This document shows positions 6,063 through 21,701 of a DNA stretch of 21,701 bases, piece by piece. Location: positions 1 to 21,701 of IMG/VR virus record IMGVR_UViG_3300024492_000010. The stretch is one strand, 5' to 3'. The notes beneath the pieces are model-generated. The model saw only the letters and a list, made by a program, of their open reading frames with translations. It was not told where the DNA came from and did not search any database. The stretch comes from a virus. The stretch's first letter is position 1; each line of letters begins with the position of its first letter. The translations under genes were made by a program, and so were the position numbers.

Positions 6063-6719
6063 CTACGGGTTCAGCACCTGGTAGAAGTTGGACTGCAAGA
6101 CCGGATTGGTCGAGGCCGCCTTGCGGGCGACGTAGTTCGCCGGGGCTTGCGGGTTGGCTGTCGGGGTCGAGGCGCCGTTCTGCCAGTAGCTGTTGGCGGT
6201 AGGGTTGGGGTCAGTCCAGTAGACGGTGGTATTGTCGACCTCGAGCGAGACCTTCTTCTTCTTGGGCTTGCCCTTGGGTTTGAGCGTCGACTTGAGCTTG
6301 ACCGCGACCGTCTTGCCCGAAACGATGGTGATCACCTTGCACTCGAGCTGGATCGTGCGGCTGTCGCCGTCGGCGAACTGGCGCTGCATCGTCACGCGCT
6401 CGAGCACGACCGGCTGGTAGTCGATGTCATCGACTTGGATCCACAGCGAGGTCTTGTCCTGGCACGCCAGCGCGAGGATGTCGAAGGCCTGCTGCGGCCG
6501 GTTGATGCCGCTGGGCTTAAAGCTGTCGTCCCACGGTCGAGGCGTCCAAATCGTCACGAGCGTGAACGTCTTGGGCTTCACGATGACGTGATCGGCGATG
6601 GCCGATCCGTCCTCGACAGGGTGATCGGTGGCCTGCGCCTCGCGCGTGTGCGTGATCGTCTCTGCCGTGTCCGGCGAGATGACGAGGCCGCTGGAAAGCT
6701 CAATCTCGCAGAAGGCCAT
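6063..6719 (-). CDS. Dit-like baseplate protein
   Basis: 218 residues beginning MAFCEIELSSGLVISPDTAETI. The first about 130 residues resemble the Dit-like N-terminal domain of myovirus baseplate proteins (TREAQATDHPVEDGSAIADHV, then RPQQAFDILALACQ), which connects tube end and hub. The C-terminal part has an unusually basic patch around residues 143-156 (LKPKGKPKKKK) and a Thr, Asn and Gln-rich tail. Start ATG 6719 makes a TGATG overlap with the tape measure stop, with GGGAGA upstream; the longer open frame has no homologous N-terminus. It is followed by plug, hub and spike, the expected order. Function is assigned by family resemblance and context; the C-terminal part is unassigned. Confidence 0.75.
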   Translation of the reverse strand: MAFCEIELSSGLVISPDTAETITHTREAQATDHPVEDGSAIADHVIVKPKTFTLVTIWTPRPWDDSFKPSGINRPQQAFDILALACQDKTSLWIQVDDIDYQPVVLERVTMQRQFADGDSRTIQLECKVITIVSGKTVAVKLKSTLKPKGKPKKKKVSLEVDNTTVYWTDPNPTANSYWQNGASTPTANPQAPANYVARKAASTNPVLQSNFYQVLNP

Positions 6720-8395
6720 CAGTAGTCTCCCGCCAGCGCCGCTTGGGCCTGCATCAGATTTTGATCCCACAGGCCGCGCGCGACTGTGTCCAGCTCGCGA
6801 GAGACAGCGGCCGCCTCGGTGCCGGGTGCAGCGTTCACGGTGATGCTGATCCCGCCGACGTCGGTATTGATCGCCGGCGCACCAGCCGGGCCAGCCGTTG
6901 CCGCCGCCTCGGCCATCCCTTGCGCCTTGGGCACGTCGAACAGGGCGCGGCCCATGATGTCGCCATAGCCGGTGGCCCTTGAGACATAGGCCTGCCCCTG
7001 AGTCATGAACTCGGCGCCAGTCTGGCGAAGTGTGGCGCCGGCTGCGGCAAAGTTTCCGGTCGCGACGTGAGCGACAGCAGCCGCGAGACCAGCGAGCGCC
7101 TTGGCAACCATGACCACGGTGGTCAACATCGTGTCGAGGATGCCCATCACTGCGCCGAGCACAACGGCGAGACCACGGAAGCTGACAGACAGCAGATCCA
7201 CTCCCTTCGAGCTATCGCCCGCATTCTTGGTCACATCGGAGAAAAGCGGCAGGATGTAGTCGACGAACAGGAGCTTGATGGTGCCGAGGGTCTCCTCGAA
7301 CTTGAGGAAAGCCGGCGTCATTCGCTCGCCGATCTGCCGCGAGAGCGCATCCGAGCGGGCCTTGGCCTTGTCCATCTCGAAGCCAGCAGCGCCGAGGCCG
7401 GTGGTCTGCGCGCGATACTGCGCGTCGACTTCGCCGGCGACTTCGCCCATGGCCTTCATCTTGTCCTTGAAGTCGGCCGCTTGATTGCCTGTCAGCGACA
7501 ACGCTTCCTTGAGGCCTTCGATGCGGCCGAACAGGGCGTTGATCTGCTCCATGCTGCCGTCGGTCGTGTTGACCAGCATCTGCATGACGCCGACAAAGCC
7601 GTACTTGCTGATCGCCTCTTTCATGCCGGTGATGCCGAGAGGCTTGAAGGCTTTTTGGAACGCGGCCTCCATGGGCTTCGAGCGGTCGATGAGCGCACGC
7701 ATGGCCGAGGACATTTGCGTCATGACTTCTGCGCCGCTGCCTGTCACGCCGGTAAGCGTGGCGGTATTGGCCATCACTTCCTCGATGCTGACACCGAGCT
7801 GCGCGGCCAAAGGTGTGACTTGGCCAATGCTGGCGGCCATCTCGGGCAGCGTGATCTTGCCGAGGTTGACCGTCTTGGAGCTGAGATCAGCGACCTTCTG
7901 CATGGTCGCCAGCGACGTGTCGCCGTAGGCCTTGGTCACTGCCGCCAACACCGAGAGGCCGTCCTTGGTCGTCGCGGCACCAGCGGCGCCGAGCTTCATG
8001 GCGATCTCGAGCTGCTGGGTCGCTTCCTTGCTATCGCCGAGCGTGCCGATTAGGTCGTAGAGACCATCGTTGATCTCGCTCGTGCCCTTGCCGAACTGCA
8101 ACGCCATGCGCTCGACGTCTGCGGCGAGCTCGCGGGTGCGGAGTTGGTCTCCACCGATCAGCGAGCTGATGTTGGCCATCTCGCGACCGAACTGCACCGA
8201 CTGATCGACGCCCTCCTTGAGCGTGCCGATGACCTTGCCGACGCCTTGCATGGCCAGATTCGACAACATGGCGCCGGCGGCGACATCGAGCGCGCCCACA
8301 CTCGACTTGATGCCGGCGAGCTTCTGATCGGTCTTGTCGAGCTGGCTGGTGTCCGAGCGGAAACCGAGCTTGATCAATAGGTCGCGGACGATCAT
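6719..8395 (-). CDS. Tail tape measure protein (TP901-like)
   Basis: 558 residues. It opens with MIVRDLLIKLGFRSDTSQLDK, a standard tape measure N-terminus, followed by the TP901-type core at about residues 65-290 (MANISSLIGGDQLRTREL, LSVLAAVTKAYGD, TLPEMAASIGQVTPLA). Residues about 405-447 are strongly hydrophobic and could cross a membrane, as in other tape measures that leave the virion during ejection. At about 1.5 angstrom per residue, the length rule would give a tail near 80 nm, so this would be a short contractile tail. Start ATG 8395 forms an ATGA overlap with the end of the frameshifted chaperone. No lytic (lysozyme or peptidase) domain is visible. Confidence 0.92.
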   Translation of the reverse strand: MIVRDLLIKLGFRSDTSQLDKTDQKLAGIKSSVGALDVAAGAMLSNLAMQGVGKVIGTLKEGVDQSVQFGREMANISSLIGGDQLRTRELAADVERMALQFGKGTSEINDGLYDLIGTLGDSKEATQQLEIAMKLGAAGAATTKDGLSVLAAVTKAYGDTSLATMQKVADLSSKTVNLGKITLPEMAASIGQVTPLAAQLGVSIEEVMANTATLTGVTGSGAEVMTQMSSAMRALIDRSKPMEAAFQKAFKPLGITGMKEAISKYGFVGVMQMLVNTTDGSMEQINALFGRIEGLKEALSLTGNQAADFKDKMKAMGEVAGEVDAQYRAQTTGLGAAGFEMDKAKARSDALSRQIGERMTPAFLKFEETLGTIKLLFVDYILPLFSDVTKNAGDSSKGVDLLSVSFRGLAVVLGAVMGILDTMLTTVVMVAKALAGLAAAVAHVATGNFAAAGATLRQTGAEFMTQGQAYVSRATGYGDIMGRALFDVPKAQGMAEAAATAGPAGAPAINTDVGGISITVNAAPGTEAAAVSRELDTVARGLWDQNLMQAQAALAGDY

Positions 8396-9026
8396 CGGTG
8401 CGCTCCCTTACGTGCCTTCTCCATCTGCCGGTTGCGTTCACGAACGCGATCGGAGACGAGCAGCACGTCGTCGAGGCTCCATTCTGTCTGAACTTCGATC
8501 AGGCTGCGAGCATAACCAGCCTCGACCGGCAGCGTCCAAAGCCACCGCGTCTTGATGGCCTGCTCGCGGAGCTTGCGAATCTCGGCCGACTGCTGGGCTG
8601 GTGTCAGCTCATGCCCTGAAGCGCGCCCACGCCCAGAGCCGCCAAAAAAGACCCGCAGCTGTGGTCGATCGACAGCAGGTGCAGGCGATACAGATCGGCG
8701 AGGTCGTGGGTGTCGCGCGGCGTCTTGCCGTCTGGCCCCATCACAGGCTCGCCGCCCAGCGTGCAGCCGTGCAGGACGCGCGTCCACACGAGGTCGCGGT
8801 ATTCCTTGTCGCGGAGCATCTTTGCGGCCTGAGCGAGCATTCGACCGGTCGCCGCGAAGTTGTCGACGCCGGCTGCCTCGCTCCTGAGGCCATCGTCGCC
8901 GGCGGCGGCCAGCATACGCCCCCGCCACTCAGCGACAATGCACGCGACGTCGAAGGCAGAAGCAGCGTCCAGCTTGGGGATAGTGGCCTGCTTGCCGTTG
9001 ACGTCGATCGTCTTGATGTCTCGCAC
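8392..9026 (-). CDS. Tail assembly chaperone, -1 frameshift fusion form (gpGT-like)
   Basis: This is the predicted long product: 127 codons of the upstream frame, a slip at 8643-8649, then the -1 frame to the TGA at 8392, 211 residues in total. The -1 part reads GGSGRGRASGHELTPAQQ and then AEIRKLREQAIKTRW, LIEVQTEWSLDDVLL and a basic end. It has no usable ATG or GTG start near its beginning, so it can hardly be made on its own. The position between tube and tape measure genes is exactly where lambda-type G/GT chaperone pairs occur; the fusion recruits the tape measure protein to the chaperone coat. The frameshift is inferred from sequence, not measured. Confidence 0.82.
8604..9026 (-). CDS. 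Tail assembly chaperone, short form (gpG-like)
   Basis: 140 residues in the unshifted frame, ending at TGA 8604. The start is taken as GTG 9026, ten bases after the tube stop; the sequence then reads VRDIKTIDVNGKQATIPKL, a beta-hairpin opening typical of these chaperones, followed by a helical region (AASAFDVACIVAEW, ATGRMLAQAAKML). The longer open frame upstream overlaps the tube gene and is a shadow. Upstream of GTG there is only a GGGG stretch, so the ribosome binding site is weak and coupling with the tube gene is likely. The protein is expected to coat the tape measure during tail assembly and to be absent from the virion. Confidence 0.8.
   Translation of the reverse strand: MRDIKTIDVNGKQATIPKLDAASAFDVACIVAEWRGRMLAAAGDDGLRSEAAGVDNFAATGRMLAQAAKMLRDKEYRDLVWTRVLHGCTLGGEPVMGPDGKTPRDTHDLADLYRLHLLSIDHSCGSFLAALGVGALQGMS
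8643..8649 (-). other. Programmed -1 frameshift slippery heptamer TTTTTTG
   Basis: On the coding strand the zero frame reads TCT TTT TTG, giving the X XXY YYZ heptamer T TTT TTG. A -1 slip changes TTT TTG to TTT TTT, enters the frame ending at 8392 and bypasses the stop at 8604-8606. A possible six-base stem (CTGGGC at 8631-8636 with GCCCAG at 8593-8598) lies downstream, but its loop is over 30 bases, so I give it little weight. Confidence 0.8.
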
Positions 9027-9036
9027 TTGGCCCCGC

Positions 9037-9477
9037 TTAGACCGCCATGCCCGCGAACTCGGACACGAGCTGGCCGATGAAGGTCCACTCCACCGTGGAC
9101 ACCTCGGGACCATACGTCACGGTTGGTTCTTTCTGCAAGGCCGCCCGCTGCATGGTCACCGTCTGGCCGCCCTGCGCGTTACGGATCACCACGGGCACCG
9201 TCGACTGCGCGCCACCGACCGTCTTTTGCGCGAACAACAGGCCATTGAGGTAGTTGTTCGACATCGAGGTCTGCAACAGCGTGACGGTGATGGTGCCGCC
9301 ACGAGCGCCGCGCTTGTAGCTGATCGCCGGCGAGCCGTCGGCGCCTTCCTTCAACATCGCGGCATCCGAGGCGAACTCGGCCGAGACGAAGTCGCCATCG
9401 CCATAGCCCGAGACCGGGACGCCGGCTACGATGATCGAGATGTCGTTGGGGCTGTAGCTTCCGAGCAGGTTGGCCAT
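9037..9477 (-). CDS. Tail tube protein (DUF3277-like)
   Basis: 146 residues. The pattern GADGSPAISYKRGARGGTIT followed by VTLLQTSMSNNYLNGLL is that of the DUF3277/Phage_tube_2 family of myovirus inner tube proteins. The order sheath, tube, chaperone pair, tape measure confirms it. Start ATG 9477 has GGAG at 9485-9488 with 7-base spacing. The gap from the sheath stop is 12 bases and holds the ribosome binding site, so this high-copy protein is translated from its own signal. No signal peptide. Confidence 0.87.
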   Translation of the reverse strand: MANLLGSYSPNDISIIVAGVPVSGYGDGDFVSAEFASDAAMLKEGADGSPAISYKRGARGGTITVTLLQTSMSNNYLNGLLFAQKTVGGAQSTVPVVIRNAQGGQTVTMQRAALQKEPTVTYGPEVSTVEWTFIGQLVSEFAGMAV

Positions 9478-9489: not shown

Positions 9490-10887
9490 TTAGACCGCGA
9501 TGTTGAGCGTCAATTCCACCGACTGGATAGCGCCGGTGCCGACGAGGTTGGCCGTGATGCCGGGCAGGTAGCGCGCGGTCTTGTTGGCCGGCGAAATCTC
9601 GCTGATGTCGGGGATCGTCCACGACTCGGCCACCTTGAAGGGCTCGAGCATGCCAAGCGAAACGTACCGCTGGCAGACGTTGATCGCCGCACCAGCCACC
9701 GCCGCGATGCCGGTGTTGTTGTAGGGCAGCTTGCCGACCTGCGGCGAGAGAACCGCCAATACTGCGGCCTGAATGTCCGACTCGAGCCGATCGCGCATGG
9801 CGACCGTGTCCATAAAGGCATGCTGACCAGCGGCCACAAAGCCGGAGGTCTGGCCCTTCTGCACCTGGTCGATGCCGCCGATCGTGACGTACACGTTTCC
9901 GCCGTGGGTCGTGACGTTGTTGTATTCCGCCGTCGACAGGTCGTCGGTCTCGGGGCCAGTCAGCGTCTTGCCGTGCGCGGTCGCTTGGCCGAGGCCCTGC
10001 GGGATCAGCTTGCCAGCCAGAGCCGCATCGCACGCGCCAGCGCCGACGTTGGTCGTGGCAAAGCTCGCGGTGTTCTGCGCGGCACCCAGCGTGCAGGAGT
10101 AGTCCGAGAGCACGAGGTCGACCAGCGGATCCAACGCGGTCAGCACGATCACGCGATCGTTGTCCGTGCCGCCACCGACCGAAACGACCGAGGCCGAGCA
10201 GATGAGACCACCGCCGACCGCGGCAATCGCCGACGCGAAAGACGCCAAGGTCGCGTCGCTGCTCACGCCGAACACAGTCGGAGCCGTGGCCACACCGTTG
10301 AGCTTCACCGTGACGCTGTTGAGGGCCACGAAGGCCGAACTGATCGTGAGGGTCACGGTCTGCGCGTCAGCCTTGCGGGCGAAGATGCCGGTGCGGATGC
10401 TGCCGCTCGACTCGAGCGTCGTGACCGCCGAGGGCGCGCCGGTGAAGGCCGCGGCCTCTTGGGTCTCGGCGAAAAAGAGGTGACGGCGAGCGGCCACGGT
10501 CTCGACCCAAGTGTCGGTGGTGACGATGTCAGCCGCGCTGCGCGAGGTCAGGAGCAGGGCATACCAGATGCCATCCTGCGCCTCGACCGCCGACAGCGAC
10601 GCCGAACTCAGGGTCGACACCGAGGCGACCTTGAAGCTCTTGGTTCGCTGGGTCTGGCCCTGAAGGGCGGCGGCGAGCTTGTAGGCCTTGTGATAGGGCG
10701 CGAAGCCAAAGCCGATCAAGTCCTGCATGTTGTAGCAGGTACGGATCTCGGGAGTGCTGGGACCAGCGGCGCCGAGCACGTTCTGCGTGTCGATGATCAT
10801 CGGGACGCCGAAGCCATCGACCGAGGCCGCCGCGCCGATGAGGTTGATCTGGATGTCCACCAGAGTGCTGCTAGGTAGCTTTGCCAT
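9490..10887 (-). CDS. Contractile tail sheath protein (DUF3383-like) with inserted domain
   Basis: 465 residues. The N-terminal strand LVDIQINLIGAAASVDGFGVP and the parts TAEYNNVTTHGGNVYVTIGG (319-338) and FMDTVAMRDRLESDIQ (358-373) are those of DUF3383 sheath proteins, which contract to drive the tube into the cell. Between the strand IRTGIFAR (164-171) and ACDAALAGKLIP (285-296), which should be nearly adjacent, about 110 residues are inserted. The insert is Thr, Ser, Val and Ala rich and looks like a beta-sandwich module (QTVTLTISSAFVALNSVTVK, then a DATLASFASAI helix). Start ATG 10887 has AGAGG at 10895-10899. Surface decoration by the insert is inference. Confidence 0.87.
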   Translation of the reverse strand: MAKLPSSTLVDIQINLIGAAASVDGFGVPMIIDTQNVLGAAGPSTPEIRTCYNMQDLIGFGFAPYHKAYKLAAALQGQTQRTKSFKVASVSTLSSASLSAVEAQDGIWYALLLTSRSAADIVTTDTWVETVAARRHLFFAETQEAAAFTGAPSAVTTLESSGSIRTGIFARKADAQTVTLTISSAFVALNSVTVKLNGVATAPTVFGVSSDATLASFASAIAAVGGGLICSASVVSVGGGTDNDRVIVLTALDPLVDLVLSDYSCTLGAAQNTASFATTNVGAGACDAALAGKLIPQGLGQATAHGKTLTGPETDDLSTAEYNNVTTHGGNVYVTIGGIDQVQKGQTSGFVAAGQHAFMDTVAMRDRLESDIQAAVLAVLSPQVGKLPYNNTGIAAVAGAAINVCQRYVSLGMLEPFKVAESWTIPDISEISPANKTARYLPGITANLVGTGAIQSVELTLNIAV

Positions 10888-20298: not shown

Positions 20299-20719
20299 CG
20301 CTCGGCGCCTCGATGGCCAGCGTCGATGCCCACTCGTCGGACGAGCTTGCCAGCGCCGGAACCACCACGACCTGAGCCGCCATCTGCACCGGGCCGCCGT
20401 CGGCGCCGGTCACCTGCGTCCGCATGGTGCGCCCGTAATTCTGCGGGTCTCGCCGCTCGAGCATCCACGCTGCCGCTTGCCAGTTGCCGTCATTCGCCGC
20501 CTTCTGGATCTTGGCGATGAGCTGCACGCGGCCGCTGCCTTCTGCTTCCTTTACTTCTGCCGCAAATTCCGGGAAATCCTGCCGCCACCGCGTAAATGTG
20601 TCATGGTCGATCCCAGCATAGCCGCACGCATCGCCGTAGCTTGCGCCGAGCCGAATCGCATCGCACAGCTTCTTGACCGTCTCAGGCGTGCGCTTGGTTG
20701 GCCGACCTGGACTACCCAT
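20285..20719 (-). CDS. terS: Terminase small subunit
   Basis: 144 residues, starting MGSPGRPTKRTPETVKKL. An N-terminal helix-turn-helix is clear: KKLCDAIRLGASYGDACGYA followed by IDHDTFTRWRQDFPEF (37-52), which binds the packaging site. A helical oligomerisation region follows (AAEVKEAEGSGRVQLIAKIQ, WQAAAWMLERRDP), and a flexible end. Start ATG 20719 overlaps the methyltransferase stop by eight bases; the open frame upstream of it is a shadow of that gene. Helix-turn-helix at the front and the large subunit directly behind make the call firm, though no packaging site can be named. Confidence 0.9.
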   Translation of the reverse strand: MGSPGRPTKRTPETVKKLCDAIRLGASYGDACGYAGIDHDTFTRWRQDFPEFAAEVKEAEGSGRVQLIAKIQKAANDGNWQAAAWMLERRDPQNYGRTMRTQVTGADGGPVQMAAQVVVVPALASSSDEWASTLAIEAPSDGAD

Positions 20720-21701
20720 CGAGCGCCCCGCTACCGGCCTCGACGTTGTTGGCCTTGGCCCATCGCGTCCACCGCCGCCGGATGACGTCACAGTATCGCG
20801 GATCAAGCTCCATCAGCCGCGCCTTGCGTCCGCTTTGCGCCGAGGCGATAAGCGTCGTCCCCGTTCCACCAAAAGCATCGCTTATGATTGCGTCAACTGA
20901 TGTAAATGTTTCGATTGCCCACGTTGGCAGATGAATCGGAAAAGTTGCGGCATGAATGTTCGCAAACTCATTGTTCCGTTGAGGTGGCGCAGAATAAACG
21001 TTCTGCACTGTGCCTTGAAAAGAGGCGCATGGTATCGCCCTGCTCGGATTGGGTTGTGGCGATAGAAAGATAAGGTATTCAAAGCGATTAGCCATAACGT
21101 TGGCCGCCATCTGAGGGGCGCCGTGACCTTTATCCCAGATTGCAACGTCAACAAGATGCGATCTCATTTCGTGCAGATACTCAACAAACGCAATCTTGTT
21201 ACCGGCAAGCTGTTGCATGTTGACACACAGGCACTTGCTAACCATCAGCCATGTAGAGCTAAACTCACACAATAGGTCTTTGTATTCGCCATGGGACTTG
21301 TTGTCTTGATACAGTCCATACTTGTTGTCTGTTGTGTGCGTGTTGCCTGATAGTCGCTCGCTATCGCCAGCATTGTAGGGCGGGGACGTAAAGCAAAGAT
21401 CCGCCTTCTCGCCCTGCATCAACCGCTCGACCGCATCCACGCTCGTCGAGTCGCCGCACATCAACCGATGCGGCCCTAGCTGATAGATCTCTCCCGGCAC
21501 GCTATGCACCGGCCCCGCCTCGTCGACCTCTGGCGGCTCGCCTTCTGGCTCCAGCACCGTCGGCTCGACATCGCCAAGCAGCCGCGCCAATTCCTCGTCG
21601 CTGAAGCCTGTATCCGCCAGCAGCGATTCGTCTGCCTCCTTCAGCTCGGCGAGCACTTGGCGCAACGTCGCATCGTCCCACGTCGCCACTTCGCCCACCT
21701 T
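20712..21701 (-). CDS. Beta-class DNA methyltransferase, 5' end outside window
   Basis: At least 329 codons are present. The frame is open to the window edge and the first residues (VGEVATWDDATLRQVL) look like the link that follows a ParB-like N-terminal domain in phage ParB/methylase fusions, so the real start is probably beyond 21701; a GTG at 21698 is the only internal alternative. Counted from that GTG, motif IV is TSPPY (104-108) and the cofactor motif I comes last, DAFGGTGTTLI (274-284), so the class is beta. SPPY is frequent in N4-cytosine enzymes but also occurs in adenine ones. The region between motifs has far lower GC than the flanks. It may protect phage DNA from host restriction. 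Confidence 0.87.
   Translation of the reverse strand, partial: KVGEVATWDDATLRQVLAELKEADESLLADTGFSDEELARLLGDVEPTVLEPEGEPPEVDEAGPVHSVPGEIYQLGPHRLMCGDSTSVDAVERLMQGEKADLCFTSPPYNAGDSERLSGNTHTTDNKYGLYQDNKSHGEYKDLLCEFSSTWLMVSKCLCVNMQQLAGNKIAFVEYLHEMRSHLVDVAIWDKGHGAPQMAANVMANRFEYLIFLSPQPNPSRAIPCASFQGTVQNVYSAPPQRNNEFANIHAATFPIHLPTWAIETFTSVDAIISDAFGGTGTTLIASAQSGRKARLMELDPRYCDVIRRRWTRWAKANNVEAGSGALDG

Follow-up and report, generated by a model that had tools for sequence, protein, structure and literature searches.

A predicted -1 frameshift in the tail assembly chaperone gene of an uncultured contractile-tailed phage

Background

The locus described here is a tail assembly chaperone (TAC) gene with a predicted -1 ribosomal frameshift, located on IMG/VR virus record IMGVR_UViG_3300024492_000010. 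Positions 1 to 21,701 of this record were analysed and are referred to as the window. Chaperones of this kind are known from several phage groups. In P2, a -1 frameshift at the sequence TTTTTTG yields E+E' in addition to E; this sequence is kept in P2-like phages and is not followed by a hairpin (PMC3091744, PMC3931495). In Vandenendeviridae and Andersonviridae (phage Adele and its kin), the chaperone gene is predicted to undergo a -1 frameshift at an invariant GTTTTT motif, and the C part is usually annotated as a separate gene or missing (PMC12846349). In lambda, the short chaperone gpG and the -1 frameshift fusion gpGT are made in a ratio that matters for tail assembly (PMC5009743).

The slip site of the window is the same as that of P2 and of the P2-like phages KS5, KS14, KL3 and Smp131, and P2-type sites likewise lack a downstream hairpin (PMC3091744). 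The P2 proteins differ in length (91/142 residues against 140/211 in the window) and share no sequence family with the chaperone of the window, which is associated with Phage_TAC_15 and a tube of the KPP10_Orf10 type. As judged by profiles and with no direct alignment to P2 gpE, no relation to the gpE family was found: the window protein has no match in Pfam or PHROG, and its family members match only Phage_TAC_15 and PHROG TAC families.

By tube family, the closest relatives are the Vandenendeviridae and Andersonviridae. They have the same tube type (KPP10_Orf10/phrog_280; tblastn) and the same order of tube, TAC-N (the zero-frame part), TAC-C in the -1 frame, and tape measure gene. They differ in the motif (GTTTTT versus T TTT TTG), and in the Pseudomonas and Acinetobacter examples several tube-type genes precede the TAC gene, unlike in the window. 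Among the known KPP10-tube phages scanned, Klebsiella phage ST16-OXA48phi5.2, POR1 and FP_Brigit resemble the window in having a KPP10-type tube, a TAC gene and a -1 open reading frame (ORF) that reaches the tape measure gene. An in-frame T TTT TTG is found in the Klebsiella phage and T TTT TTC at the same place in the other two. Their tubes are only 31-33% identical to that of the window, and the chaperone itself gave no tblastn match to them.

Lambda is a siphophage with no detected sequence relation to the contractile-tailed phage of the window, and its heptamer differs from T TTT TTG. An earlier reading of the window, made from the sequence alone, had compared the locus to the lambda G/GT pair; this was right for the place in the genome, but the closest slip site is that of P2 E/E+E' and the closest relatives by tube family are the two families named above. 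Set beside the T6G site of P2, these families, the KPP10-tube phages and the lambda model, the locus is very probably a new, distant addition to a device that is already well known.

In the record of the Klebsiella phage (MK448230.1, L030 3828-4067), the chaperone carries T TTT TTG and the C part in the -1 frame is annotated separately as 'NTP pyrophosphohydrolase'; this product is very likely a fragment of a frameshift fusion. The records of POR1 (L033 3866) and FP_Brigit (L034 3860), whose chaperone genes contain T TTT TTC, annotate no frameshift.

Two reading frames and a predicted slip site

The locus consists of three elements:

8604..9026, minus strand: zero-frame gene, short form of the chaperone (TAC-N, 140 residues), recognized by its ORF, the Phage_TAC_15/PHROG matches of relatives, and its fold
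8643..8649, minus strand: slippery heptamer T TTT TTG, phased for -1 slippage, seen in the sequence and kept or exchanged in relatives
8392..8642, minus strand: -1 frame part (TAC-C) of the predicted 211-residue fusion, open and conserved at the protein level (56-100% in near relatives), with a WSLDDV core in all

The zero frame extends from a GTG start (9026-9024) to a TGA stop (8606-8604). At 8649-8643, TTTTTTG is read as the zero-frame codons TTT and TTG, which after a -1 slip would re-pair as TTT TTT. The last base of the heptamer and the zero-frame stop are separated by 36 nt. The resulting fusion would comprise 211 residues with the junction ...SCGSF-L-GGSGRGRASGHELTP. Both the fusion length and the positions given in the sequence-only reading for the zero-frame stop (8604), the end of the second frame (8392) and the heptamer were confirmed. 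The -1 frame stop at 8394-8392 overlaps the ATG of the tape measure gene at 8395-8393 (ATGA at 8395-8392). Across the 23 genes predicted in the window, in-frame heptamers of any X XXY YYZ kind occur just six times, and T TTT TTN is found once, at the chaperone heptamer.

The -1 frame could instead be a separate small gene, translated from its own start or by ribosomes that re-initiate past the zero-frame stop, with the heptamer being incidental. In the window no stop interrupts this frame as far upstream as 8928, and GTG codons occur 5' of the heptamer at 8928 and 8787, so that a gene caller would begin it there. Mechanical gene calling does yield a 178-residue ORF from 8928, the kind of wrong upstream start that had been anticipated. 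The claim that the second frame lacks a start of its own needs this one qualification: the window has the two upstream GTG codons. From the heptamer to the conserved core there is no ATG, GTG or TTG, and no start is conserved in relatives. L006, L019, L020 and L021 (L numbers denote loci of relatives) carry a GTG three codons ahead of the heptamer.

Conservation of the two-frame layout

Relatives of the chaperone were found on 17 IMG/VR contigs, several of them near-identical to each other, and 12 of the 17 were analysed in detail at the locus. A tblastn search of the chaperone against 50,697 phage records gave no match, two scans of GTDB genomes gave no relatives, and an additional viral scan with a wider profile added no new loci. 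The two-frame layout is kept: every relative found has a second frame, offset by -1, that overlaps the end of the first, and the fusion length is nearly constant, with 211-214 residues in most relatives. Identities to the window (zero frame, then -1 frame) are 73-99% and 67-100% for L001-L006, 44% and 59% for L019 and L020, 46% and 57% for L021, 28% and 44% for L023, and 17-20% and about 30% for L025-L029. The WSLDDV core in the C part is invariant, L025-L029 included.

Compared with near-identical relatives, L005 (1336-1701) has an in-frame loss of 18 codons in the chaperone's N-terminal helix and has retained both frames and the heptamer.

Several of these loci leave no room for independent initiation. 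A stop blocks the -1 frame three codons ahead of the heptamer in L003, L004 and L005, and no ATG, GTG or TTG separates the two; in L001, L005, L025, L027 and L029 no such codon occurs from the last -1 stop to the conserved core. The only start in L003 and L004 is a GTG about 62 nt past the heptamer, which is absent in the other relatives. The second ORF thus overlaps the first in the -1 frame without a usable conserved start, and in relatives with a closed -1 frame or no start the C part is reachable only from the zero frame. A heptamer is present in every case. A separate small gene is accordingly very unlikely and appears, from the relatives, to be already largely refuted.

Exchange of the slippery heptamer

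T TTT TTG is identical in L001-L006, L019 and L020, i.e. down to 44% identity; in L006 it lies only 24 nt from the zero-frame stop. L019 and L020 hold a second site, G GGT TTT, one codon upstream. The corresponding sequence of L021 and L022 is GGGGGTTTCTTG, where, relative to L019/L020, a T to C change destroys T TTT TTG and G GGT TTC is left. L023 (2968-2976) and L024 (same) have nine T followed by G, which gives T TTT TTT and T TTT TTG, and L025-L029 have C CCT TTA. An in-frame slippery heptamer is therefore located in the overlap throughout, either conserved or exchanged. The sequence-only reading had named loss of the heptamer in relatives that keep both frames as evidence against a frameshift. 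Examined across the set, T TTT TTG is lost only where another slippery heptamer replaces it in the overlap, a pattern that favours frameshifting. Together, the relatives form a small natural set of exchanged slip sites.

The T runs raise a second alternative, namely that RNA polymerase rather than the ribosome slips and shifts the frame. The window has a homopolymer of six T and L023/L024 have one of nine. Six T is short for transcriptional slippage, and the two-frame layout exists without such a run in L021/L022 (GGGGGTTTC) and L025-L029 (CCCTTTA), which makes this explanation even less probable than a separate gene. The nine-T run of L023/L024 is of a length at which polymerase slippage could contribute alongside that of the ribosome.

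Chance and selection

To estimate how often a heptamer arises by chance, codons were randomised synonymously, with the protein fixed and the codon usage of each locus, and A/T-type X XXY YYZ heptamers in the open overlap were scored. When any Y was allowed, the chance value was high, presumably because Met-Gly-Pro codons make GGGCCCN; hence Y was set to A or T. The probability of an A/T-type heptamer in the overlap was 0.002 for the window, 0.004 for L006, 0.06 for L019, 0.03 for L021, 0.19 for L023, and 0.03-0.07 for L025, L027 and L029. These values, which are not independent within a clade, jointly speak against chance.

Substitutions between the window and L003 were assigned to codon positions. 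Of the 77 upstream of the site, 48 affect the third position of a zero-frame codon; past the zero-frame stop, third positions of the -1 frame account for 25 of 40. Changed codons in the right frame are synonymous or nonsynonymous at 37:20 in the first region and 17:14 in the second, and nearly all are nonsynonymous when read in the wrong frames. Both frames thus show selection on the encoded protein, and the constrained frame switches at the site: the third-position pattern and the synonymous counts indicate that both halves are real protein and that the coding frame changes here. A one-base change would join both frames, which could point to a mistake in sequencing or assembly, or to gene decay. 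These explanations are ruled out by the purifying selection in both frames and by the relatives, which come from different assemblies and all show the same relation between the frames.

Family, fold and position of the chaperone

The genes on either side of the pair are:

9037..9477, minus strand: tail tube gene, upstream of the chaperone (Pfam KPP10_Orf10, 3.2e-16; phrog_280)
6719..8395, minus strand: tape measure gene, downstream of the chaperone (Pfam PhageMin_Tail, 2e-21; PHROG tape measure families)

The same flanking genes are found in L019, L022, L023 and L025. The pair therefore sits exactly where frameshifted tail assembly chaperones occur. At E 0.1 or better, 9 of 13 family members match Phage_TAC_15 (PF21822), among them L006, which is 73% identical to the window (22.3 bits versus a cut-off of 22, residues 10-130), and L025, a clear pass with 35.2 bits. 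Every PHROG family matched by a member carries the name tail assembly chaperone, apart from one without a name. An AlphaFold2 model of the chaperone (mean predicted local distance difference test score, pLDDT, 85; predicted template modelling score, pTM, 0.78) has two strands followed by helices. Its best viral fold match is an annotated tail assembly chaperone, with modest E-values, and the chaperones of Moogle, LIET2, POR1 and a Rheinheimera phage rank lower. Searches of the PDB by sequence and by fold gave nothing convincing. The C part is predicted to be all-helical and has no match in Pfam or PHROG in any member, and hence no named family. By position, the Pfam/PHROG matches of relatives, and fold, the gene is a tail assembly chaperone, and the -1 frameshift pair in lambda G/GT-type place proposed from the sequence is supported by these together with the conserved layout.

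Proposed mechanism

We consider it highly probable (about 0.95) that the locus encodes the tail assembly chaperone of a contractile-tailed phage as a 140-residue TAC-N and a minority 211-residue fusion made by a -1 slip. Most ribosomes would stay in the zero frame and produce TAC-N. A minority would slip one base back at T TTT TTG, with the P-site Phe codon TTT re-pairing to TTT and the A-site Leu codon TTG to TTT, pass the stop at 8604 and produce the 211-residue TAC-NC. By analogy to lambda gpG/gpGT, many short copies may coat the tape measure protein, few long copies may recruit tube subunits via the C part, and both forms would depart before the tail is completed.

The analysis establishes the gene order, both frames, the heptamer and the conservation of these, the switch of constraint between frames and the chaperone family; slippage itself, how often it happens and what the two products do are inferred. 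Several points weigh against this interpretation. The window protein alone has no match in Pfam or PHROG, so that the family assignment runs through its relatives. Downstream RNA structure in the window is not unusually stable (z +0.77 over 100 nt, -0.71 over 46 nt). Across the relatives, minimum free energies are mostly ordinary and the consensus fold is almost without covariation, with no conserved structure. No Shine-Dalgarno-like stimulator upstream of the heptamer was obvious by eye. Rfam gave no match.

L021 and L022 are an exception with respect to structure. In L021 (746-788) and L022 (2989-3031), a 10-bp G+C stem starts four bases after G GGT TTC, with z -3.96 over 100 nt and about -2 over 36-43 nt. 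The two loci are identical at the stem and thus count as a single observation and a lead only. Tentatively, and with more doubt than confidence, the slip site may turn over in this TAC lineage while the fusion stays, with the hairpin of L021/L022 as a stimulator that compensates for a weaker heptamer.

For annotation, the C-terminal part at 8392-8642 should be given as part of the fusion instead of being omitted or started at 8928. The locus would add an uncultured myophage lineage to the users of -1 frameshifting for the tail chaperone and leaves the general picture unchanged.

Genomic context

The contractile-tail morphogenesis module of the window runs in one direction. It comprises the small and large terminase, portal, Mu F-like protein, DUF2213 protein, major capsid protein, tail terminator and sheath, followed by the KPP10_Orf10 tube, the TAC-N/TAC-C pair, tape measure, baseplate hub and Baseplate_J.

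9490..10887, minus strand: tail sheath gene (phrog_205 tail sheath, 9.8e-44)

An N6_N4_Mtase DNA methylase gene (20712-21698) adjoins the terminase small subunit gene upstream and overlaps the start of that gene.
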